A stretch of DNA of 23,915 nt from a virus. The stretch covers positions 1 through 23,915 of the IMG/VR virus record IMGVR_UViG_3300025674_000391; one strand, written 5' to 3'. Within the stretch, counting starts at the first letter, position 1. Every line of letters begins with the position of its first letter. Position numbers and translations under genes: made by a program. The notes beneath the pieces are model-generated. The model saw nothing but the letters and a program-made list of their open reading frames with translations. It had not been told where the DNA came from and did no database searches. Positions 1 through 8,736 of this stretch are shown piece after piece.

Positions 1-269
1 ACAAAGCATCAGAATATAGATATGTTGCCGTTAGTCGTAATTTATTAAAACGCTGGGGTGGTTGGTTAGACTATGGAGATTTTATCGTATTGACCGGAAC
101 TGACGGAAAGGACGGAGTGTATCAAGTCAAAGATACAATGAACGAAAGATTTGTAAATCGTATTGATATCTTGGAATCACCAGGTACAAAACCATATATG
201 TTTTCAAGTGCCAAGATTAAGAAAGCAAATCTAAACGAAGATATAAAATTTGTTACAGAAAAAAAATAA
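1..269 (+). CDS. 3D-domain (double-psi beta-barrel) protein, C-terminal part only
   Basis: This is an open frame entering from the left edge (frame starts at base 3) and ending at TAA 267-269, about 88 codons visible. The pattern VAVSRNLLKRWGG, then a YGD turn, then DTMNERFVNRIDIL resembles the 3D domain (named for its three Asp residues), a double-psi beta-barrel seen in peptidoglycan-acting enzymes and in many phage proteins of unknown role. The D-T-M-N and N-R-I-D segments would be two of the conserved Asp positions. The tail after this is Lys-rich and ends in KK. The N-terminus lies outside the window, so a catalytic or targeting domain could be missing. A role in cell-wall processing or lysis is an inference from the family. 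No hairpin terminator is visible after the stop. Confidence 0.55.
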   Translation, partial: KASEYRYVAVSRNLLKRWGGWLDYGDFIVLTGTDGKDGVYQVKDTMNERFVNRIDILESPGTKPYMFSSAKIKKANLNEDIKFVTEKK

Positions 270-289
270 TCTATTTTTACACAATGATA

Positions 290-304
290 TTATATTTATA
301 TTTG
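290..304 (+). promoter_or_regulatory. Possible promoter before the accessory cassette
   Basis: The 81-base gap between the 3D-domain gene and the ATG at 351 contains TTATATTTATA (290-300), which shares its core with the motif before 8347, 18711 and 21767. The overlapping TATATTTG (297-304) also fits the Bacteroidetes-type -7 element TAnnTTTG. There is no clear -35 TTGACA. GAGG at 341-344 is the ribosome binding site for the next gene. Which polymerase form reads this promoter cannot be decided from sequence. Confidence 0.35.
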
Positions 305-350
305 TAGAGAAATAACTAAACATTAATAATTAAAAAATATGAGGTATTAA

Positions 351-1529
351 ATGAGTTTTGAAAACTTTTTCGGACAACCCGAGTTCGACTACGACGGAGA
401 AAAACAAAAGTTCATAAACAATATGGACTATCTAAAATCTCAATCAGTTCAAGAAGCAACATTATGGAAGAAGTGGGAAGAATTTAATAAAGAACCACAA
501 TACTATATGGATAGAGCAGATAGTATTGATAGGTTAGAAAAAACACTTTGGACACCAACAGACATCTACAATAAAGAATTAACTATATCAGAAATCAATG
601 CAATCGAACCAATCATAGAAGTTGTAGAACAAGGAACAGGAGATGATTGGATATTAACAAGACGATTGATTCACTCTATGGAGTTCACAGCAAATCCAGG
701 TCGTAATGTAAAGTTCTTCGTTAAAGACAAAACCACCAATAAGGTATTGGGTGTAATCTCATTAGGTAGTGATGTAACTTCATTAGGAGTTAGAGATGAG
801 TATATCGGTTGGACAAAAGATGATAAGTTTAAAAACGGAAGACTAAATCATACTGCAATCGGTTCTACTATTTGTTGTACACAACCACTTGGATTTAATT
901 TCTTGGGTGGTAAGTTGGTAGCAGCTATGGTTACATCAGGAACAATTCGTGATACTTGGAAAGAACTATATGGACAAACCGTAGTTGGTTTTTCTACAAC
1001 TGCATTGTATGGTATTCACTCAATGTATAATGGAATACCACATTGGAAAACTCTTGGAGAAACCAAAGGTAAGATTAGTTTAAAACCGGACGATAAGTTT
1101 TATGATGTATGGCATCAATGGTTGAAAGACAACAATCGAGAAGAATACGACAAGGTTACAACATCAACTACCGGACAACCAGTCACAGGTATCAAACAAA
1201 AAATTCTACAATTGATTTACAAAGAATTAGGAATTAAACGAGCAGAATATGAACACGGATTTAAACGAGGTTGTTATTATGCAGATTTATATCAAAATGG
1301 AAAAGAGTTTCTAAGAAGTGAAATCACAGAAGATGAATTAATTATGAAACCTAAATATGAACAAGATGTAGAGTATATTAAAAACTGGTGGAAACCAAAA
1401 GCAATCAACCGATATACAAAACTATTAGAAGAAAACAGAATCAAACCAGAGAAGTTATATTATAAAGATATCATCAATACTTCTTGGGAAGAAACAAAAG
1501 AAAAATACTTAGGAGAAATAGGTAGATAG
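351..1529 (+). CDS. DruA/DUF4338-like protein
   Basis: A 392-residue protein with ATG preceded by GAGG seven bases upstream. Residues about 95-245 have the look of the DUF4338 domain found in DruA of the Druantia defence system: a strand-rich start with VLGVISLGSDV (132-142), RDEYIGW (149-155), a run of conserved small and polar residues including the Cys pair C175-C176, NFLGGKLVA (183-191), then a helix and an LYG-containing strand (207-223). The part after about residue 280 is charged and helical and contains KRGCYYADLYQN (305-316), probably a second conserved module. DruA has no settled biochemical activity that I can cite, so none is assigned. Here it stands without other Druantia genes and abuts a glycosyltransferase gene (1-base overlap, TAGTG), so a role linked to DNA modification is plausible. 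The family call rests on recognised pattern only. Confidence 0.5.
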   Translation: MSFENFFGQPEFDYDGEKQKFINNMDYLKSQSVQEATLWKKWEEFNKEPQYYMDRADSIDRLEKTLWTPTDIYNKELTISEINAIEPIIEVVEQGTGDDWILTRRLIHSMEFTANPGRNVKFFVKDKTTNKVLGVISLGSDVTSLGVRDEYIGWTKDDKFKNGRLNHTAIGSTICCTQPLGFNFLGGKLVAAMVTSGTIRDTWKELYGQTVVGFSTTALYGIHSMYNGIPHWKTLGETKGKISLKPDDKFYDVWHQWLKDNNREEYDKVTTSTTGQPVTGIKQKILQLIYKELGIKRAEYEHGFKRGCYYADLYQNGKEFLRSEITEDELIMKPKYEQDVEYIKNWWKPKAINRYTKLLEENRIKPEKLYYKDIINTSWEETKEKYLGEIGR

Positions 1530-2566
1530 TGAGGATAGTTTTACCATACAATGACCACCTTGGTAAGTTTAGTAAAACTAACTTTGTTGGTGGGATTGAA
1601 AAATTTTGTGTTCAGATAATGGAAACATATGATGATGTTCACATTATCAATATTAACAACAAAGAAAATCCTAAAGACAACACAGAAAAAATAAAGAACT
1701 TTGCAAGAGAAAAAAATGCAGACATCATTATATCTAATTGGCATCAAGCATCTTTTGTTGGTTCATCTATTACAGATTCAGAAATTCCTATTATGTTTTT
1801 ATATCACTCATTACCTTCTTTTGGTTCGTTTATTAAAACTGCACTTAACCTAAAGAAACACAATCACTCTTGTTTTTTTGTTAGTGAATATCAACACAAT
1901 ATAGTTAATGAGTTGGGTAAAAGATTTAAAGAAGACTATCTTGATGCTGATGGTTTTATAAATTCAAGTTATGTAATCGGAGATAAACCAAAACTAAAAG
2001 AGATAGAATATGATTGTATCACTATCGGTAGATGTGAACCAACAGAAAAGAAACCTTTTTTATTAAAAGAATATTTGAAAGATACTGATTATAAAAGTAT
2101 GGTTATTACAACTAATCCAATAAATGAAAAAGAAAAAAAATATATTGAGAATAATTCTAATTGGGATAATGTATTAATGGGAATAAAACATTCAGAAGCT
2201 ATGGAACACTTATCAAAGTCTATGACTTACTTTTCTACAATGCCATTTGAAACTTGGGGTATCACGGCATTAGAAGCATTATCTCACGGAGTTCCAATAA
2301 TTTTAAATTCAAAGAAAATGAAACATTCATCTGAAAGTATACCGGCATCTAACAAACATTATAAGAAAATATTGTGGGATAAGAAAGTTGGTTCAGAACA
2401 ATTGATATCTGCTATTGAAAGTTTTAGAAATATAGACAGAAAAGAAATACAAGATATGACTTGGGATAAACATAATCATACTGAATGGAAAGATAATTTT
2501 TCTAATTGTATTGACAAAACATTAGATAATTTTAAAAAAAATAATAAATTTGAAAAATTTACTTGA
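1529..2566 (+). CDS. GT-B glycosyltransferase (GT4-like)
   Basis: A 345-residue protein starting with GTG that overlaps the preceding TAG by one base, which indicates translational coupling. The N-terminal Rossmann half carries the GGIEKF motif (residues 21-26) typical of GT4 enzymes that use nucleotide sugars. The C-terminal half contains FETWGITALEALSHGVP (240-256), where E241 and E249 form the EX7E motif, followed by a hydrophobic strand IILN. At 345 residues it is compact but complete for a GT-B fold. Acceptor and donor are not visible. Because a second glycosyltransferase downstream carries a DNA-binding-like domain and the genome is a phage, modified DNA bases are a reasonable acceptor, but capsid protein or host surface glycan cannot be excluded. 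The C-terminus is Lys/Asn-rich. The promoter of the next gene begins three bases before this stop codon. Confidence 0.8.
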   Translation: MRIVLPYNDHLGKFSKTNFVGGIEKFCVQIMETYDDVHIININNKENPKDNTEKIKNFAREKNADIIISNWHQASFVGSSITDSEIPIMFLYHSLPSFGSFIKTALNLKKHNHSCFFVSEYQHNIVNELGKRFKEDYLDADGFINSSYVIGDKPKLKEIEYDCITIGRCEPTEKKPFLLKEYLKDTDYKSMVITTNPINEKEKKYIENNSNWDNVLMGIKHSEAMEHLSKSMTYFSTMPFETWGITALEALSHGVPIILNSKKMKHSSESIPASNKHYKKILWDKKVGSEQLISAIESFRNIDRKEIQDMTWDKHNHTEWKDNFSNCIDKTLDNFKKNNKFEKFT

Positions 2567-2591
2567 CATTGTTAAAAAAATTTTGTATATT
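2563..2591 (+). promoter_or_regulatory. Sigma70-type promoter for the DUF262-HNH gene
   Basis: TTGACA (2563-2568), a spacer of exactly 17 bases, then TATATT (2586-2591). The -35 box is perfect and the -10 box differs from TATAAT at one position. It overlaps the last codon of the upstream glycosyltransferase. It gives the nuclease gene its own, presumably early, transcription by host polymerase, with a leader of about 90 bases. Confidence 0.75.
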
Positions 2592-2600
2592 AATATACAA
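2583..2600. promoter_or_regulatory. 18-bp perfect palindrome over the -10 box (candidate operator)
   Basis: TTGTATATTAATATACAA is a perfect inverted repeat with no spacer, and it contains the whole -10 element. A dimeric repressor bound here would block the promoter. The AT-rich composition makes short palindromes common, but 9-bp half-sites centred on a strong promoter are less easily explained by chance. No obvious repressor gene is in the window. Confidence 0.5.
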
Positions 2601-2614
2601 TTATATCGTGGATA

Positions 2615-2630
2615 CCAGATATCCAGATAT
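2615..2630 (+). repeat. Tandem 8-bp repeat in the leader
   Basis: CCAGATAT occurs twice back to back (2615-2622 and 2623-2630), about 25 bases downstream of the -10 box. It could be a second regulatory protein site or chance. TATAAT follows at 2631-2636 but lacks a matching -35 box. Confidence 0.35.
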
Positions 2631-2652
2631 TATAATAACGGGGGAAAGAATA

Positions 2653-2712
2653 ATGGATGTCGAGTACCCAATAACGAATAGGAGACAAATATGTCGACAA
2701 TCGATAAAATAG
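2653..2712 (+). CDS. Possible 19-residue leader peptide overlapping the nuclease start
   Basis: An ATG at 2653 follows a G-rich ribosome-binding-like stretch (GGGGG at 2640-2644) and reads MDVEYPITNRRQICRQSIK before TAG 2710-2712. It overlaps the first seven codons of the nuclease gene in another frame. Translation of this peptide would compete with or couple to initiation at 2691. It may be only a chance frame. The placement directly in the leader of a potentially toxic nuclease makes an attenuation-like role worth noting. Confidence 0.25.
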   Translation: MDVEYPITNRRQICRQSIK

Positions 2713-4364
2713 TAGATAACATCAAATCTACACAAGAACAGAAGGCAACTGAAAATGCCGAATCAAAATGGTTATATATGGATGCGAGTGGAAACACTAC
2801 ACCAATTGATGAAAGTCAAATAACCTTAATGTCTATTGAGGATTATATCAGATGTGAAATAGCAAATGATGTATTCAGTAATAGAGCAGGAGAACCTACA
2901 CCACTTTCAACAAGGGGTGGAGTTTCAGTAAAATGGTTATACGAAATGTATAACACCCAAACCCTTGAAACGGGTTCAAGAGAGTATCAACGAGAAAAAG
3001 TTGCAACTCTTGCATTTAAACAAGATATGATTAAAACAATTCTATGTAGACCTTGGTCGAGAATACCAGAGGTACACATCAGAGTAATCGTAAAAAATGG
3101 AGTACCTTACTATGAAATCATAGATGGTCAACAAAGAATACGAGCATGTATTATCGGATTCTTAAAGAATGAGTTCAAATTACCAAAAGGGTTTATGGTA
3201 GGAAACTTAGACCTTGGTGAGATGAACGCACAAGATGTGAGAAATAAGTTTCCACATCTATATGAGGAAATTCTAAATTACAGAATAACAAATACTTGGT
3301 ATGAAAACCTTTCAGACGAAATGACATCTGAGTTATTTGTAGAGGTATTGAACAAAACAAATGATATGAAACCACAAGAAAAACGAAATGCAGTCAGAGG
3401 TTTCCTATCATCTTACATTAGAGATAATGCAAGATTCGAAGTTCACGAACTATTCAGTCGTGATATTACAAATGTAGGAACAAAGAAAGAAAAACAAGTT
3501 CTTAAATATTTTCCTAATTTAAAACTAAATGGGAGAATGGAAGCAGACGAATTTCTTTCTCAACTTCTTTATGGAGTAGTCAAGGGTTGGAGAAGTGGAG
3601 TTTCTGAAAATCCATTGACTAATTGGGTTAAAACCGAACAAAAAGACGGAGCAACTTACAAGGTTCAACAATCTTGGAAAAGTGCAAAAAAAGAGTTTGA
3701 CACCTTTTTGGACTTTTGTTTGGGGATAGTTAAAACAATTAGTCCAAATAATAAGAAACGACTAACCAAGAATATGGCATTCAATTTATTACTATATGGG
3801 TATGACTTACATACCACATATGGAAAGTTGGACAAACAAATGTATACAGATTGGTGGTTTGATGTTTACACTCGTTGGAGTGAAAACTCAAAGAACAAAA
3901 CACCACTATATCACGGACATACATTTCCAGGTAGTCCCGATAGAGACTTACCACAATTTGACGCACTATTTAGTGGGTTGAATAAGAATAGCATAAGTGC
4001 TCAAATTTATGTTTTGGATTTGGAACTTAACAAAGACAAATCTAAAGCAGGAGTGGTTGAGTTAGACCAAAGAGAAACTTTCTCTAAGTCTGATGTTCAG
4101 AAAAAGTTTTTTGAACAAGGACAGAAATGTTTCTACACAGGTGAACCATTAAACTTATCAAACGCAGCTGGTGACCATTATATCGCCAGAAGTTTGGGCA
4201 TTGCAAGAGGTGGTGTAACTGAATATGATAACTTAGTTATCACAACATCACTTTTGAACAATGAAAAAGATAACAAAACACCGGAGGAATTTCATAAGTT
4301 CCTTGTAAAAAGAGGTTATAATATTTCACCGGAGTTTGAAGCAAGGTTACAGGAAACCAAATAA
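2691..4364 (+). CDS. DUF262 + HNH nuclease (GmrSD-like, fused)
   Basis: A 557-residue protein starting at ATG after AGGAGA (2680-2685). Residues about 80-170 carry the DUF262 (ParB-like) signature: REYQREK (97-103), a helix, RIPEV (124-128), and the catalytic or nucleotide-binding motif DGQQR at 145-149. A long middle region (200-440) is helical. The C-terminus is an HNH-type module: C480 in KCFYTGEPL, the D495-H496 pair, N514 in EYDNLV, and N524/K526. DUF262 with a C-terminal HNH domain is the architecture of GmrSD type IV restriction enzymes, which cleave glucosylated hydroxymethylcytosine DNA. GmrSD homologues usually carry DUF1524 as the HNH part; here the HNH part looks more like the CxxTGEPL type. 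A phage carrying such an enzyme between two glycosyltransferases is notable. Possible roles are destroying rival or host DNA or acting on modified bases. The stop overlaps the next ATG (TAATG). Confidence 0.7.
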   Translation: MSTIDKIVDNIKSTQEQKATENAESKWLYMDASGNTTPIDESQITLMSIEDYIRCEIANDVFSNRAGEPTPLSTRGGVSVKWLYEMYNTQTLETGSREYQREKVATLAFKQDMIKTILCRPWSRIPEVHIRVIVKNGVPYYEIIDGQQRIRACIIGFLKNEFKLPKGFMVGNLDLGEMNAQDVRNKFPHLYEEILNYRITNTWYENLSDEMTSELFVEVLNKTNDMKPQEKRNAVRGFLSSYIRDNARFEVHELFSRDITNVGTKKEKQVLKYFPNLKLNGRMEADEFLSQLLYGVVKGWRSGVSENPLTNWVKTEQKDGATYKVQQSWKSAKKEFDTFLDFCLGIVKTISPNNKKRLTKNMAFNLLLYGYDLHTTYGKLDKQMYTDWWFDVYTRWSENSKNKTPLYHGHTFPGSPDRDLPQFDALFSGLNKNSISAQIYVLDLELNKDKSKAGVVELDQRETFSKSDVQKKFFEQGQKCFYTGEPLNLSNAAGDHYIARSLGIARGGVTEYDNLVITTSLLNNEKDNKTPEEFHKFLVKRGYNISPEFEARLQETK

Positions 4365-5701
4365 TGTCGTTAAGTAGATTCATATCAGACGACAAAGAAT
4401 ACAAGTATAAAATACTTGTGTATCCAAATATAACTTTCCAAAAAGATTTGGAGAAAGATAGTTATGTAGTTGTGTTGGGTAATATAATTAAAGAAATGAA
4501 TAAGCTCAGAAATGATTTACATTGGACAATTTTATCACCCAAGTTAATATCAAGTTTACAATTTGACAATACAGAACAATTAATAGTTCCACAACTTACA
4601 TATCCTAATTCAATGAGAATGTCTTTTCCATTTAAAGAAGTTATGAAAGTAATTGACTGGAAGCATACAGATTATGATATCGTGTATAGTCATTTACCGG
4701 AGCATACTGGACAACTGAAGAATCTACTTTTCAACACAACCAATATTGAACCAACAATAATCGGTTATACTCATTGGACTGAGTTCAAGGAAATAACAAA
4801 TTATGAATATCAAGTTGGTTTAGCATTTAACATTATTGGTTTATTACAACAAGAGAAATGTGGTATCAATACAGAAGCACAAAAACAACTCGTATTGAAA
4901 AATGCAAGGGAACAATTTAATGATGATGTAGTTAAACAATTAGATGAAATCCTTGAACCACATTATCTCGGTTGGGAAACACCAAACTATGAAAAACAAA
5001 CAACAGATAAAAATATAATTGTTTACAATCATAGACCACACACATACAAAAACTATCCTTGGTTCTTACAACAAATGGATAAACTTTGGGAACAAAGACA
5101 AGACTTTGAAGTGTGGGTTCCATTAGCAGAATCAAAAGAAAAACAATATATGACGATTGACAAGTATGATAGATATGGTTATTTTTCTAAATTATCTTCT
5201 TGTAAAGTGGGTGTTTGTTGTAAACAAAAATATGAAGGTTGGGCAGTATCTGCTACGGACGGAATGTCAGTTGGAGTTCCTTATATGTTTTCAGATGACG
5301 GAAGTTATCACGAGTTAGCAGATGATGCTGGAATATATTATAAAGATTCAGATGAGTTTTTAACACTAATGAATAAAGTATTAGATGACGAAAACTTTAG
5401 AAATGAATATTCTGAAAAATCATTACAACGATTTGAAGATAGTAAATGGGATAAACAGATTTTAAAAATTAACGATATGTTTCAAAACTCTATGGACAAT
5501 TTAAGACAGATTGGTAAAACAGAATCATACGATAGAATGGTAGAGTTTATCAAAAATAAAAAGTCCGTAACAAAAAATGAGATAATGAAGCATATGGGAG
5601 ATTGGGGAGTTAGAGTAAAATTTAACGGATACCGAAACAGATTAAGAACTGAAAAAGATATAAGATTAACAAAAAATAGATACGAGGTTATTGAAAAATG
5701 A
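4364..5701 (+). CDS. GT-B glycosyltransferase with C-terminal winged-helix-like domain
   Basis: A 445-residue protein translationally coupled to the nuclease gene. The N-terminal half is a Rossmann-like domain. The C-terminal half has the nucleotide-sugar site YEGWAVSATDGMSVGVP (290-306); E291 and D299 make an E-x7-D variant of the GT4 EX7E motif, followed by DDGSYHEL. After the catalytic fold ends near 375, residues about 388-445 form a separate module: helix (YDRMVEFIKN), a second helix after a Thr cap (TKNEIMKHM), a basic stretch with many Arg/Lys, and a terminal beta hairpin ending in RYEVIEK. That order looks like a winged helix-turn-helix, which would bring the enzyme to DNA. This makes DNA-base glycosylation the leading hypothesis. 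The wing assignment is by eye. The 3' end overlaps the HD gene (ATGA). Confidence 0.75.
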   Translation: MSLSRFISDDKEYKYKILVYPNITFQKDLEKDSYVVVLGNIIKEMNKLRNDLHWTILSPKLISSLQFDNTEQLIVPQLTYPNSMRMSFPFKEVMKVIDWKHTDYDIVYSHLPEHTGQLKNLLFNTTNIEPTIIGYTHWTEFKEITNYEYQVGLAFNIIGLLQQEKCGINTEAQKQLVLKNAREQFNDDVVKQLDEILEPHYLGWETPNYEKQTTDKNIIVYNHRPHTYKNYPWFLQQMDKLWEQRQDFEVWVPLAESKEKQYMTIDKYDRYGYFSKLSSCKVGVCCKQKYEGWAVSATDGMSVGVPYMFSDDGSYHELADDAGIYYKDSDEFLTLMNKVLDDENFRNEYSEKSLQRFEDSKWDKQILKINDMFQNSMDNLRQIGKTESYDRMVEFIKNKKSVTKNEIMKHMGDWGVRVKFNGYRNRLRTEKDIRLTKNRYEVIEK

Positions 5702-6501
5702 AACAACTAACAGAACAACAAATAATGGATAATTGGAACGAACTTAGAACCATTATCAACAATACATTTAGTGGAGAAAGATTAGAAAAACTCAACAAGA
5801 TGTATGATTACTTTGAAGATAGAATGTGTATGGCACCAGCAAGTGGTAGAGCACATTATCATAATGCTATGGTCGGTGGATATGTAGAACACATATTGCA
5901 TGTGGTCAAATTTTCACAAGAGGTAAAATCTATGTGGGAAAACAATGGTGCAGAAATAAACTTTACAGACGAAGAACTAATCTTTGCTGCACTACATCAC
6001 GACTTAGGTAAAGTCGGAGATTTGGAAAACGACTACTATATTCCAGAGGAATCAGATTGGCATCGTAAAAACCAAGGTAGTATTTTTAAACACAATCCCG
6101 AACTACAATATATGACCGTATCAGATAGGTCAACTTGGTTATTACAACATTTTGAAATACCAATGACTGAGTGGGAATATTTGGGATTAAGATTAACTGA
6201 TGGATTATACGAAGAAGCAAATGAAAAATATCTTAAAGGGTTTAATCCACAATGGGCAGTAAGAACAAATATGGCTTACATCTTACACCAAGCAGATATG
6301 ATGGCTACTCACATTGAGTCAGACCAATGGAAACGAGGTGATAAAATTGAGAGTGATAAAGTTATGATGTCAGTAAATAAAATTAAGGGCGCAGTCGATA
6401 AACAAGTTGATGCAAACAATGAAGTTAAAGAAAAGTTCAATACTAAATCAACTGATGCGAAAGATATCTTTAACGAACTATTTGGGGAGGCAAAAAAATG
6501 A
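5698..6501 (+). CDS. HD-domain metal-dependent phosphohydrolase
   Basis: A 267-residue protein. The HD superfamily metal ligands are visible in order: H65 in GYVEHILHVV, the H101-D102 doublet in ALHHDLGKVGDL, and D200 in ILHQADMMATH. HD proteins hydrolyse phosphomonoesters or phosphodiesters, often of nucleotides; the substrate here is unknown. The C-terminal 55 residues are charged and probably helical. The gene overlaps its neighbours on both sides by four bases (ATGA), so it is in the same translational unit as the glycosyltransferase before and the small membrane protein after. In T4-like phages an HD enzyme could serve nucleotide pool management during replication or remove a defence nucleotide signal; the sequence does not distinguish these. 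Confidence 0.75.
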   Translation: MKQLTEQQIMDNWNELRTIINNTFSGERLEKLNKMYDYFEDRMCMAPASGRAHYHNAMVGGYVEHILHVVKFSQEVKSMWENNGAEINFTDEELIFAALHHDLGKVGDLENDYYIPEESDWHRKNQGSIFKHNPELQYMTVSDRSTWLLQHFEIPMTEWEYLGLRLTDGLYEEANEKYLKGFNPQWAVRTNMAYILHQADMMATHIESDQWKRGDKIESDKVMMSVNKIKGAVDKQVDANNEVKEKFNTKSTDAKDIFNELFGEAKK

Positions 6502-6746
6502 TATATGGTATATTAACAATTATTTGCTTGACTTTAAGTTATGTTGTGTTTAACTTAACGAGAAAAGTAGAAAGACTTGAAACTTGGGTTGAGGATTACG
6601 CACAACGAATCCAAGAAACACAAAATACTTTAAAAGAGATTGACCAAAAAGGAACATTTGAAGCTGATGATGAAATCGGTGTAGTGTTTCAAGCAATCAA
6701 AGAAACCGTAGACGAGTTAAACGAAATAACAGAACAGGAGATATAA
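6498..6746 (+). CDS. Small N-terminally anchored coiled-coil protein
   Basis: An 82-residue protein of unknown function. Residues 2-20 are a single hydrophobic segment, followed by a basic RK pair that favours a cytoplasmic C-terminus. Residues 22-78 are acidic and helical with heptad-like spacing of hydrophobic residues, suggesting a short coiled coil. It overlaps the HD gene by four bases and its TAA directly abuts the ATG of the sigma factor gene. The gene carries GGAG just before its own stop, serving the next gene. Confidence 0.7.
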   Translation: MIYGILTIICLTLSYVVFNLTRKVERLETWVEDYAQRIQETQNTLKEIDQKGTFEADDEIGVVFQAIKETVDELNEITEQEI

Positions 6747-7472
6747 ATGCCAAGAAAAGCAAAAAAAGGTTCAACAAGATATTACTTTACAGATGTAACT
6801 GAACAAGCAATCATTAGACACAATAATGAAACTCGTCCACATATGCGAGAACGAATTTATAATGAACACATCAGACAACCATTTGAGAAGTTAGCAGAAA
6901 ACATTATTCACACATTTAAGTTTTATTACTTTGATGTTCCGAGTGAAGATGTTAAACACGAGGTTGTGAGTTTCTTATATATGAATATGCATAAGTTCAC
7001 CGAAGGTAAAGGTAAGGCATTTAGTTATTTCAGTATCGTGGCAAAGAATTATTTAATTCTACACAACAATAACAATTACAAAAAATTAAAACAAACTGAT
7101 GACGAGTCCGTAACGGATTACAAAAGAGATGCGATGTGGGAAACACAACGAGAAGATATCTTAGAAGGACAAAAAGAATATATGGATTTATTCATTGATT
7201 ATTGGTCAAACAATCTAACTACCGTCTTCAAACGAAAACAAGATATAGATGTTGCTAATTCAGTATTGTATTTAATGGAACAAAGACAAAACATTGAGAA
7301 CTTTAATAAGAAAGCTCTATACATTTTGATTAGAGAGATGACCGGTTCCAATACACAACACATTACTCGTGTGATTAATGTTCTGAAAAAACATCATACT
7401 AATTTACAAAAGAACTACTTGGCAACTGGTTCAATAGAAACGAAATTTACTGGGTCGTGGGACAACTTATAA
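6747..7472 (+). CDS. Probable late-transcription sigma factor (gp55-like)
   Basis: A 241-residue protein. After a basic N-terminus, residues 34-110 follow the plan of a minimal sigma region 2: a helix with HMRERIYNEHIRQPFEKLAENII, then an acidic helix (EDVKHEVVSFLYMNMHKF) and the stretch KGKAFSYFSIVAKNYLI, which matches the core-binding and melting segment seen in gp55 of T4-like phages. In T4, gp55 replaces sigma70 on RNA polymerase and, with gp33 and the sliding clamp, directs transcription from TATAAATA promoters. T4 gp55 is 185 residues, so this one is longer at the C-terminus. It is followed by the structural gene block that carries shared upstream motifs. Other small sigma-like factors remain possible. 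Confidence 0.65.
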   Translation: MPRKAKKGSTRYYFTDVTEQAIIRHNNETRPHMRERIYNEHIRQPFEKLAENIIHTFKFYYFDVPSEDVKHEVVSFLYMNMHKFTEGKGKAFSYFSIVAKNYLILHNNNNYKKLKQTDDESVTDYKRDAMWETQREDILEGQKEYMDLFIDYWSNNLTTVFKRKQDIDVANSVLYLMEQRQNIENFNKKALYILIREMTGSNTQHITRVINVLKKHHTNLQKNYLATGSIETKFTGSWDNL

Positions 7473-7942
7473 TATTACTTTTATTATTAGTTGGTTGTCA
7501 ACATAACACGACCAAGTGGATTGAACGAAATCCAGTAGTTGAATATGATATGAGATTACCAATTGATGAGAATGGTTATTATCATTTAGAAATCGATAGA
7601 GATAAAGTTCAAACAATTCATAGAGTAAGTGGTTATGTCGGAGATGAACACGGCCCGATTGAAGCACATAGAGTTGAGTGGGAAAGTAATTTATATTGGA
7701 TTATCGGAGATACTTTGGGATACATTTACAAACGAGGATTAACTGATGAATTTGTTTATGTAACTTACGATACAATGTATTTAACTCAGTTCAAAGGTTA
7801 TGAAGTTCCCACTACAAATAATGTTAGTTATTCCAATATGTTTGGTGAGATTGATAATATGATAGCACCTACAAAACAGATGATTGGAGATACACTAAAA
7901 CTTTCTTCTAAAAATAAAACCTTCAATATAGTTTTAGAATAA
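7457..7942 (+). CDS. Putative lipoprotein
   Basis: A 161-residue protein. The reading begins at GTG 7457, inside the end of the sigma factor gene, and gives a hydrophobic run of Leu followed by LVGC, a lipobox with the lipidated Cys at residue 14. The signal is unusually short and lacks a positive charge, so the true start could be another weak codon slightly upstream (ATT at 7445 is in frame). The mature part (about 147 residues) is rich in Tyr and acidic residues and looks like a beta-strand protein; I do not recognise a family. A phage lipoprotein could be an outer spanin, a superinfection-exclusion protein or a decoy. The gene ends just before a hairpin terminator. No partner inner spanin is adjacent, which weakens the spanin idea. 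Confidence 0.6.
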   Translation: MGQLIILLLLLVGCQHNTTKWIERNPVVEYDMRLPIDENGYYHLEIDRDKVQTIHRVSGYVGDEHGPIEAHRVEWESNLYWIIGDTLGYIYKRGLTDEFVYVTYDTMYLTQFKGYEVPTTNNVSYSNMFGEIDNMIAPTKQMIGDTLKLSSKNKTFNIVLE

Positions 7943-7944
7943 CA

Positions 7945-7968
7945 AAGGGCAGTATTTCTACTGCCCTT
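7945..7968. terminator. Bidirectional hairpin terminator between convergent genes
   Basis: AAGGGCAGTA, loop TTTC, TACTGCCCTT is a perfect 10-bp stem. It lies 3 bases after the + strand lipoprotein stop and 13 bases beyond the stop of the - strand gene. On the - strand the stem is followed by a T-rich tract (TTTGTTATT), so it can end transcription from both sides. Confidence 0.85.
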
Positions 7969-7980
7969 GTAATTCCACCT

Positions 7981-8202
7981 TTATTTGTTGAGTAATCCGA
8001 ATATCACGATAAATGATAGAAATCCAGCAAATCCTGCATTACTAAAAGAATTTACCAAATTAATCAAATTACCAACAATGTCGATGCCTAAGAACCCACC
8101 TACAAATACTAATTGTACGAGAACCCCTAATCCGATAATGTGATACAATAAGTCTTTAATTCCGACTATTGAATCCAATATCAATTTCATTGCGTCTTTC
8201 AT
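7981..8202 (-). CDS. Small two-span membrane protein (holin-like size)
   Basis: A 73-residue protein and the only convincing gene on the - strand. Its ATG has a strong ribosome binding site on the - strand (AGGGGA about 9 bases upstream), which supports it being real. Residues about 20-45 and 53-71 are hydrophobic and Gly-rich (for example VLVQLVFVGGFLG and GFAGFLSFIVIFGLL), with a short amphipathic N-terminus containing three Lys and three Asp. Size and topology would suit a holin, but small phage membrane proteins have many other roles and no endolysin is next to it. It is convergent with the lipoprotein gene, with which it shares the 7945-7968 terminator, and divergent from the structural genes. 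Confidence 0.65.
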   Translation of the reverse strand: MKDAMKLILDSIVGIKDLLYHIIGLGVLVQLVFVGGFLGIDIVGNLINLVNSFSNAGFAGFLSFIVIFGLLNK

Positions 8203-8228
8203 TTTAGTTTCCCCTTTTAAATGAACAA

Positions 8229-8249
8229 AAGTCGGTTTTTTCCCGACTT
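8229..8249 (-). terminator. Hairpin in the leader of the - strand gene
   Basis: AAGTCGG, a 7-base loop, then CCGACTT makes a 7-bp stem. Read on the - strand it is followed by TTTTG, like a weak intrinsic terminator, yet it lies upstream of the - strand gene start at 8202. It may therefore act as an attenuator or 5' leader structure of that gene, or stop leftward read-through from elsewhere. Confidence 0.5.
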
Positions 8250-8290
8250 CCTATATAACTATATGGTATTTTTAAAAAAATAAACCGATA

Positions 8291-8298
8291 TATAAATA
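8291..8298 (+). promoter_or_regulatory. T4-type late promoter box TATAAATA
   Basis: An exact match to the T4 late consensus TATAAATA on the + strand, 49 bases before the ATG at 8347, inside a very AT-rich tract (TATATAAATATATATA). The surrounding low-complexity sequence makes a chance match quite possible. The gap 8203-8346 otherwise holds the hairpin at 8229-8249 and the motif at 8321-8335. Confidence 0.3.
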
Positions 8299-8320
8299 TA
8301 TATACCCTTTTTTCCATAAC

Positions 8321-8335
8321 CTTATATTTATTGAT
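8321..8335 (+). promoter_or_regulatory. Shared late-promoter-like motif, copy 1 of 3
   Basis: CTTATATTTATTGAT, 12 bases upstream of the ATG at 8347 and just ahead of the AGG ribosome binding site (8336-8338). It matches the copies at 18657 and 21728 over 12 bases exactly and over the purine-degenerate end. It precedes the first gene of the baseplate block. Read on the other strand it contains AATAAATA, so orientation is not certain. Confidence 0.5.
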
Positions 8336-8346
8336 AGGAAAAAACT

Positions 8347-8736
8347 ATGTCACACGATTACGAAATATTTGAAGGCAAAACCTTATCTGATGTGTTCAAA
8401 GACATCTATGATAATTCCAAAACTAATAAGAAACAATTAGAAGTCTTGATGAAAGAAGTGGTAGGGTTTATTAAAGACGGAGATACTGCCGTTCAGATTA
8501 TTCCTATGCTCAAAGAGTATTTAGAAATCAATGTGAAGAACGACGAACAACTTGTTAAATTAGCAACGGTCGTTCAAAGAATTATGGCATCAGAAAAAAG
8601 AGTCACAGATTCAGGTGATGAATTTGGTTTAACAGAAGCAGAAAAAGAACAATTAATGAATGCTATTGAGTCTGATGTTCAAGAGTTACAAATCAAAAAA
8701 GACGAAATAGAAAATTCTATCAACAAGGGAAACTAA
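8347..8736 (+). CDS. Conserved-looking helical phage protein, function unknown
   Basis: A 129-residue acidic protein with no signal or membrane segment. It is almost entirely helical by composition, with two charged helices at the C-terminus (residues about 95-125) that could form a coiled coil. Its ATG follows the late-like motif, and its stop overlaps the start of the spike-like gene (TAATG), which places it first in the baseplate operon. A tail assembly chaperone or virion component is an inference from position only. I do not recognise a named domain. Confidence 0.6.
   Translation: MSHDYEIFEGKTLSDVFKDIYDNSKTNKKQLEVLMKEVVGFIKDGDTAVQIIPMLKEYLEINVKNDEQLVKLATVVQRIMASEKRVTDSGDEFGLTEAEKEQLMNAIESDVQELQIKKDEIENSINKGN

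Follow-up and report, generated by a model that had tools for sequence, protein, structure and literature searches.

A constant glycosyltransferase gene with interchangeable, often nuclease-like partners at a fixed position in the genomes of uncultured marine viruses

The IMG/VR virus record IMGVR_UViG_3300025674_000391, itself a fragment, was analysed over its 23,915 bases (the window). Between a druA-like gene and the gene of an HD-domain phosphohydrolase it carries a DUF262-HNH nuclease gene joined to the gene of a GT4-fold glycosyltransferase (GT2). Comparison with related loci showed that druA and the HD gene, which begins at 5698, enclose the exchangeable unit, and that close relatives can differ in the partner gene in front of GT2, the replacement lying right where GT2 begins. 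Judged from the sequences, the cassette sits at a fixed genome spot in uncultured marine viruses of bacteria, and its partner gene changes while the glycosyltransferase stays, as if the latter served as a shared antidote. The L numbers used below (L002, L066 and so on) denote the loci collected in this analysis, whose records are fragments; slots or proteins that are nearly identical enter each count a single time, by rules that differ slightly between counts. The features of the window are as follows.

3..269, plus strand: left flank, a small conserved open reading frame (ORF) 5' of druA, open at the window edge; 81-93% identical in 12 of the 12 loci L002-L013
351..1529, plus strand: DruA/DUF4338-like protein, 392 amino acids, PF14236; forms one border of the exchange slot, with a 3' end that overlaps the start of the next gene
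1529..2566, plus strand: GT1, a GT4-type glycosyltransferase, 345 amino acids, GTG start; PF00534 at 30.7 bits
2563..2591, plus strand: promoter-like site of the sigma-70 type, TTGACA-17-TATATT, preceding the genes of the nuclease and GT2
2691..4364, plus strand: DUF262-HNH nuclease, the exchangeable partner here, 557 amino acids; PF03235 at E 6.2e-6, below the cut-off
4364..5701, plus strand: GT2, a GT-B/GT4-fold glycosyltransferase and the constant gene of the cassette, 445 amino acids; PF00534 at 33.1 bits
5522..5698, plus strand: C-terminal winged-helix-like tail of GT2, residues 387-445, from the secondary structure of a predicted model
5698..6501, plus strand: right flank, HD-domain phosphohydrolase, the conserved slot border; PF01966 at 22.7 bits versus a cut-off of 22

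The limits of the unit can be read from slots that lack it. Among the closest relatives by DruA, the HD gene directly follows druA in L002, L003, L004, L008, L010 and L011, and GT2 with something else lies between the two in L005, L006, L007, L009, L051, L052 and L054. The 64 distinct complete druA-HD slots, the window included, comprise 16 empty and 48 occupied ones, and GT2 stands at the 3' end of all 48, followed in seven of them by one ORF of 70-107 amino acids. Because part of this first sample had been chosen by GT2 (the best 80 of 575 relatives), the count was repeated on loci selected by the HD protein (the best 80 of 502 relatives, 46 of the 80 without druA within 9 kb on the contig), with a partner defined as any other ORF of at least 120 amino acids. 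The 31 distinct complete slots of this second sample divide into 11 empty, 19 with a partner and GT2, one with GT2 only and none with a partner only (Fisher p 1.4e-7 for the association of partner and GT2, relatedness ignored); Mom or methylase genes are present in 5 of the 19. Selection by DruA, in a sample that overlaps the HD-selected one, gave 13 complete slots, 6 of them empty and 7 with a partner and GT2. Over 77 distinct HD-selected loci, the HD gene is preceded by GT2 in 36, by druA in 13, by the contig end in 8 and by another gene in 20.

The linkage can also be seen from the side of the partner. A search with an alignment of DUF262-HNH nucleases seen near GT2 returned 50 loci, in which relatives with at least 380 bits to an alignment row were taken as close and those below 300 bits as distant, and GT2 was accepted as the next gene at an hmmsearch E of 3e-120 or better. 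Of the distinct close relatives, 20 have a downstream gene; GT2 comes next in 18 of these (all but L251 and L264), in 11 of 12 when the contigs that supplied alignment rows are set aside (7 of the 18, plus L264), and in 0 of 11 distinct distant relatives; L255 and L257 (no complete ORF) and L077, L242, L248 and L249 (no downstream gene) were left out. With one GIY-type partner as the query, 29 loci were collected, and GT2 comes next in 11 of the 13 distinct loci with a downstream gene, or in 10 of 12 without the contig of the query, leaving out L307 and L309 (no complete ORF) and L302 and L303 (no downstream gene). The linkage of nuclease and glycosyltransferase suggested by an initial annotation of the window is therefore upheld from HD-, DUF262-HNH- and GIY-selected samples. 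More distant phages have the pair at another position as well, directly before ORFs of 830-900 amino acids that are probably polymerases, judging from motifs read by eye rather than from a profile. GT2 is present in 13 of the 15 distinct loci of this kind; of the other two, L029 carries only Mom, and L049 carries a GIY-type gene but no GT2. Mom-type genes, which in some cases form tandem pairs, were seen in L014, L015, L021, L029, L032, L038 and L053, where they are positioned before the nuclease-GT2 pair, GT2 or the polymerase-like ORF.

The range of partners was assessed in 80 distinct GT2 genes, mostly GT2-selected, with a gene at most 400 nucleotides (nt) upstream. These partners are GIY/ParB-type (13), DUF262-HNH (13), Mom (7), c21 (6), ParB-restriction endonuclease (ParB-REase) type (5), druA (5), other (5), c7 (4), GHKL, c14, c11 and c8 (3 each), HNH, D12 methylase, HNH-ResIII and N6/N4 methylase (2 each), and another methylase and a TAGT (1 each). 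Library support for these classes rests on representatives. Those of the DUF262-HNH class match GmrSD_N, under its cut-off; L053 matches HNH-type PHROGs; ResIII and HATPase_c_3 (GHKL) were matched in representatives, as were D12, N6_N4 methylase and TAGT; Mom was matched at E 6e-44 and 8e-40, and the methylase of L096 weakly. L051 is the only GIY member with a library match (PHROG 'homing endonuclease', E 1.5e-12), L059 and L036 having none, and the GIY-YIG motif assigned to this class was recognised by eye. PHROG supports only the ParB part of the ParB-REase class (E 9e-4), so that its putative REase part, like the putative HNH part of the ResIII class, was called by eye. For the 16 genes of c7, c8, c14 and c21 the libraries gave no informative match and none to a nuclease, and their apparent DUF262 or HNH features were likewise seen by eye. 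Profile comparison clearly relates c11 (3 genes) to DUF262-HNH (hhalign E 4e-15) and c21 to L031 (E 1e-8), and weakly relates c8 (E 1.2e-4) and c14 (E 2.3e-4) to DUF262-HNH. A profile row that joined GIY and GHKL over 9 columns was a start-of-gene match and was disregarded.

The replacement of partners is precise. In 73 of the 80 genes, the first in-frame GT2 start lies between -9 and +4 nt from the upstream stop, most commonly with a 1-nt overlap (36). On a quick tree of the 80 GT2 proteins the partner class changes 46 times, compared with a minimum of 17 and a shuffled mean of 59.9, and 0 of 200 shuffles were as low (two figures of this calculation exclude the five 'other' rows), indicating some clustering but extensive swapping, with partners turning over more quickly than GT2 itself. 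The sharpest case is the pair L066/L067, from records of different metagenomes, which are 99.9% identical over 7,954 nt from 3 nt before GT2; upstream of this point lies a D12 methylase gene in L066 and the end of a DUF262-HNH gene in L067 (about 390 nt on the contig). Breaks at most 6 nt from the GT2 start were also found for L007/L063 (98%), L051/L086, L095/L096 and the window versus L065. At the 3' ends of druA and GT2 the stop overlaps or abuts the start of the next gene, which is preceded by a G-rich stretch that reads as a putative ribosome-binding site, an arrangement that would ease clean gene-for-gene replacement. L066 holds in one slot (1399-5480) a GIY-type gene, a gene for an unknown protein of 200 amino acids, the D12 adenine methylase gene and GT2, and may thus combine the cassette with a type II pair of the classical kind; the D12 assignment comes from a methylase profile match made on the relative in L064.

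GT2 exceeds the PF00534 cut-off (33.1 bits versus 26.4). Its predicted model, with a predicted local distance difference test score (pLDDT) of 86.9 and a predicted template modelling score (pTM) of 0.84, shows a GT4-type GT-B fold of two Rossmann domains and aligns with 7qsg_A over 341 residues (VIA-align Z 28.7, root-mean-square deviation (rmsd) 3.3), 982 of 998 chains reaching Z >= 8. The last elements of this model of the whole protein are three helices with a hairpin, an arrangement reminiscent of a winged helix. The GT-B enzyme with a probable DNA-binding tail that had been proposed for this gene is confirmed by the model in its GT4 fold, and DNA binding by the modelled tail is plausible. 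Body and tail vary independently: GT2 of the window agrees with that of L055 at 95% in the body and 68% in the tail, and with that of L005 at 44% and 74%. Relatives of GT2 occur at 575 places in IMG/VR; tblastn gave no match in 50,697 sequenced phage records, and bacterial and archaeal genomes yielded 2 places, one of which is a phage-like contig in a metagenome-assembled genome (MAG). The other is L233, a Nitrosotalea MAG contig, with a GT2 relative of 23% identity in an archaeal metagenome bin.

The nuclease of the window has a DUF262-like region at about residues 97-275 and an HNH region at about residues 463-539. PF03235 scores 26.9 bits against a cut-off of 33.2 (E 6.2e-6) and HNH_4 14.1 against 22; PF03235 is likewise under its curated cut-off in L041, L061 and L069. 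The C-terminus matches the endonuclease VII/HNH PHROGs phrog_1583, phrog_2598 and phrog_1035, and the protein carries YQRE...DGQQR and GDHYIAR...GG...N...N, which we take to be DUF262 and HNH signatures. A related architecture in another phage, L169, scores 33.4 bits with PF03235, just above the cut-off. Although under the Pfam cut-off, the first assignment of the gene to DUF262-HNH is thus correct on the strength of the PHROGs, the motifs and the relative in L169. No match to the GmrSD C-terminal (DUF1524-type) domain was found at the C-terminus with Pfam to E 1, which returned only the weak HNH_4. The protein therefore resembles the GmrSD/BrxU type IV enzymes in its DUF262-like N-terminal domain with the DGQQR motif and in having a nuclease C-terminus, whereas it differs from them in being phage-encoded, in the HNH/endonuclease VII-like nature of that C-terminus, in standing beside a glycosyltransferase and in being replaceable by unrelated nucleases. 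A more distant DUF262 gene (382 amino acids) lies in another variable slot of L003/L271, after a gene of 241 amino acids, where GT2 is not next.

The four ORFs of the initial annotation were all found, and it had regarded them as four coupled genes forming a single cassette. Coupling holds for druA/GT1 and for nuclease/GT2, each with a 1-nt overlap, but not for GT1 and the nuclease gene, which are separated by a gap of 124 nt; GT2 in turn overlaps the HD gene by 4 nt. The cassette of four did not survive comparison, since DruA is present in empty slots and GT1 in few loci, and a search for the four-gene neighbourhood among the collected loci found the order only in the window and one contig (L077/L068).

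GT1 is over the PF00534 cut-off (30.7 bits versus 26.4), in agreement with the GT4-type call made for the first glycosyltransferase, and contains GR..K and E-x7-E, presumably the GT4 motifs. It is a rare member of the cassette: a single-protein search, which reaches close relatives only, found 7 loci, with a GT2 relative adjoining in 4 and beyond the nuclease in L077, and the distant L317 has the order DruA-GT1-GT2. In L319 (2849-6812), after the polymerase-like ORF, a GT1 relative (45%) stands in a run with a C5-cytosine methylase (E 3.5e-57), a Tet_JBP-like dioxygenase (E 1.7e-7, 31.1 bits, under the cut-off of 34.9) and a TAGT (E 3.6e-12). With 11 of 12 consensus matches, the promoter-like site at 2563-2591 ranks first among the 49 sites of 1-8500, a region whose shuffled versions yield 43 sites on average; both hexamers and their spacing are kept in L077, beside a 32-nt gap. 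A perfect 18-bp palindrome, TTGTATATTAATATACAA (window 2583-2600), overlaps the -10 box of this site before the nuclease gene. By chance 0.03 would be expected with at most 2 mismatches, for a pattern chosen after being seen, and the palindrome is absent from L077.

DruA matches PF14236 with 83.8 bits (cut-off 27) and the PADLOC DruA profile at E 6.5e-24, which bears out its assignment as a DruA/DUF4338 protein. The gene belongs to the standing gene set of this T4-like lineage, outside the exchangeable unit: it is present in the 16 empty slots of the 64 distinct ones and in the 11 of 31 in the HD-selected sample, and because it stays when the slot is empty, membership of DruA in the cassette was ruled out. 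Its matches extend to 31 phage records, mostly of cyanophages (25 Synechococcus), the nearest among sequenced phages being Pelagibacter phages at 35% and 31%. The likeness to Druantia is confined to the DUF4338 domain; PADLOC found no other Druantia protein, DruE included, among 5 + 10 window proteins of this genome fragment (the remaining ORFs, of at most 205 amino acids, were outside the scan), and druA is here a conserved gene of a phage lineage. No other defence gene was seen by PADLOC in the 10 further window proteins. Further downstream, the window has genes with matches to PHROGs for the baseplate wedge subunits of T4-like phages. We take them to be gp25 and gp6; among sequenced relatives, those closest in the gp6-like protein are Microcystis phage Mel-JY01 (48%) and Flavobacterium phages (41%).

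In the predicted model of DruA (pLDDT 84.3), the top structural rows are mostly GNATs. The first VIA-align row is phage Mu Mom (8bv8_A, Z 10.2, rmsd 3.9, 182 aligned residues), tied within 1 Z of SpeG and other GNAT rows, and Foldseek gave no match at E 0.001. An alignment of DruA and one of Mom, each with little diversity, did not match in profile-profile comparison, and no counterpart of the Mom N-x-E-S columns is visible by eye in the DruA alignment. DruA was accordingly rejected as a true Mom, the two having only the fold in common; as a lead only, the modelled acyltransferase-type (GNAT) fold might act on DNA. Solved structures searched by sequence gave nothing useful for DruA or GT2, and among predicted viral structures the nearest was a 366-amino-acid protein of an uncultured Caudovirales phage at 29% identity.

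Several observations hint at DNA as the target of GT2: its linkage to DNA-acting genes, its tail, the modification genes found before HD in other loci and the run around the GT1 relative in L319. The theme of DNA modification and restriction that had been proposed for the region is supported. In L182 (2994-6011), the place before HD is taken by genes of a thymidylate-synthase-like protein, an asparagine synthase/GATase and, weakly, a PALP-like protein, a set that looks like a base hypermodification pathway. ORFs with starts similar to those of this set were seen in L176 and L195. The same place holds a TAGT in L225 and, in L169, a reversed pair of a weakly matching glycosyltransferase and a DUF262-HNH gene. 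Base hypermodification operons of C5-methylase, TET and glycosyltransferase exist, and TAGT in Pfam is the TET-associated glycosyltransferase. The cassette resembles them in the run of L319 and in L120, where GT2 has a TAGT beside it (in L061 a member of the cluster of this TAGT stands before the nuclease), but no TET or C5-methylase was seen in the window. T4 alpha- and beta-glucosyltransferases act with hydroxymethylcytosine. GT2 resembles them as a phage glycosyltransferase with a presumed action on DNA, and differs in its winged-helix-like tail, in being coupled to a nuclease gene and in that no hydroxymethylase was found with it in 32 fragmentary records. A search of selected records, all fragments, for acceptor enzymes (PF00303, Tet_JBP, TAGT, Thy1 and C5-methylase) yielded in total two dTMP-synthase-like proteins and one C5-methylase, that of L319. 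TAGT was found in 0 of 27 records, with those of L061 and L120 outside these 27.

The reading we prefer, tentatively and at slightly less than an even chance, is that of a phage-borne cassette resembling a restriction-modification system, with GT2 as a DNA-directed general protector. It joins two of the three functions considered in the initial annotation, hypermodification and a weapon against rivals. The partner gene, here that of the DUF262-HNH nuclease, is translationally joined to GT2, and GT2, here with GT1, would put a sugar on the phage DNA. Such a general mark would make the phage genome resistant to any linked nuclease, so that nucleases could be freely swapped, and the nuclease would cut DNA that lacks the mark, whether the host's or a competing phage's. 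From outside the exchangeable unit, DruA may contribute an underlying modification of the bases. That cutters are interchangeable while one glycosyltransferase stays constant is most simply explained by restriction with protection. The wider proposal, a restriction-modification family with a winged-helix DNA glycosyltransferase as its general antidote and one sugar mark as self against many cutters, so that marine T4-like phages could trade nucleases of unrelated classes at will, seems to us rather doubtful.

A number of findings weigh against restriction with protection by GT2. Modification genes, not nucleases, make up 12 or 13 of the 80 partners, so a nuclease plus antidote does not fit every case. 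GT2 is alone in 5 of the 48 occupied slots, and L133, L134 and L139 have it before the polymerase-like ORF without a recognised partner; conversely, a partner lacks GT2 as the next gene in L049, L251, L304, L308 and L264, the last of which, from the same phage as L069, has GT2 three genes on, behind druA. Neither GT2 nor druA precedes HD in 20 of the 77 HD-selected loci (the genes of six were scanned). On the protein level, 8 of the 24 GT2 in the alignment lack the tail, all 8 from loci of the distant group with the gene before the polymerase-like ORF, and the E-x7-E motif, which we assume to be that of GT4, is imperfect: the window has E291-x7-D299, and among the 24 GT2 E291 varies and D299 is invariant. 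No hydroxymethylase was seen beside GT2 in 32 distinct records; PF00303 matched in 2 of the 32, both of them presumably ordinary dTMP synthases by motif. Tet_JBP was found in 0 of 27 related records and also in 0 of 14 control genomes, and because the search matched no control genome, the former number does not show absence.

The DUF262-like domain would also suit a type IV-like weapon, in which the nuclease cuts the modified DNA of rival phages and ignores the different mark given by GT1 and GT2. According to PMC13390438, BrxU, of the GmrSD family, cuts modified coliphage DNA and all modified phage DNAs tested, and in our loci other modification pathways stand before HD in relatives and around the GT1 relative. 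The C-terminus of the nuclease is, however, HNH/endonuclease VII-like, with no GmrSD C-terminal domain matched, and near-identical GT2 are accompanied by nucleases from unrelated classes as well as by methylases, for which dependence on modification is not expected; we consider such a weapon unlikely. A homing-type drive, in which free-standing nucleases spread by cutting genomes without the slot insert and GT2 is cargo or a neighbour, would account for the GIY-type and HNH classes, the 'homing endonuclease' match of L051, the sharp and recent gene replacements and the occasional nuclease without GT2. It would not lead one to expect Mom, D12 and N6/N4 methylases, TAGT, GHKL and ResIII-type proteins in the same position, the pair at a second locus as well, or GT2 in every one of the 20 occupied HD-selected slots, and we hold it to be improbable too.

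If GT2 and GT1 instead altered surface glycans of the host against superinfection, linkage to nucleases would reflect a shared hotspot of competition genes. The nearest solved GT4 folds to GT2 act, by their structure titles, on lipids, sugars and small molecules, and glycosyltransferases of pelagimyophages are interpreted as O-chain modifiers in PMC7029224. This explanation is quite unlikely given the winged-helix-like tail, the DNA-acting neighbours in three selections, the GT1 relative in a C5-methylase/TET-like/TAGT run and the base-modification genes before HD elsewhere. That DruA, GT1, nuclease and GT2 act as one four-gene system we regard as highly improbable: the order recurs in the window and L077, and DruA-GT1-GT2 in the distant L317, but DruA stays when the rest is gone, GT1 is found in few loci and a separate promoter-like site precedes nuclease-GT2.

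Restriction with protection by GT2 has its closest counterpart in the Mom-REase systems of jumbo phages, which PMC7824862 predicts to protect phage DNA and to attack the DNA of the host or of superinfecting phages. In both, a phage modification enzyme is coupled to an endonuclease, and here 7 of the 80 loci have Mom itself next to GT2. Mom is fused to the REase in those systems, whereas here the nuclease is separate, exchangeable and of many classes, and the constant gene is a GT4-fold glycosyltransferase. No description of such a cassette was found in the literature searched, most subscription journals being outside its reach.

Whatever the mechanism, L066/L067 and at least four further swap pairs show that replacement occurs at a fixed junction with the precision of single genes. 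If restriction with protection by GT2 is true, a large group of uncultured phages would fight the DNA of hosts or rivals with a modular cutter and a common sugar mark of self. This would extend the logic of restriction-modification to glycosylation and explain the presence of nucleases in the exchange slot, and the cassettes would be a source of many new nucleases, each accompanied by a clue to how it is tolerated.

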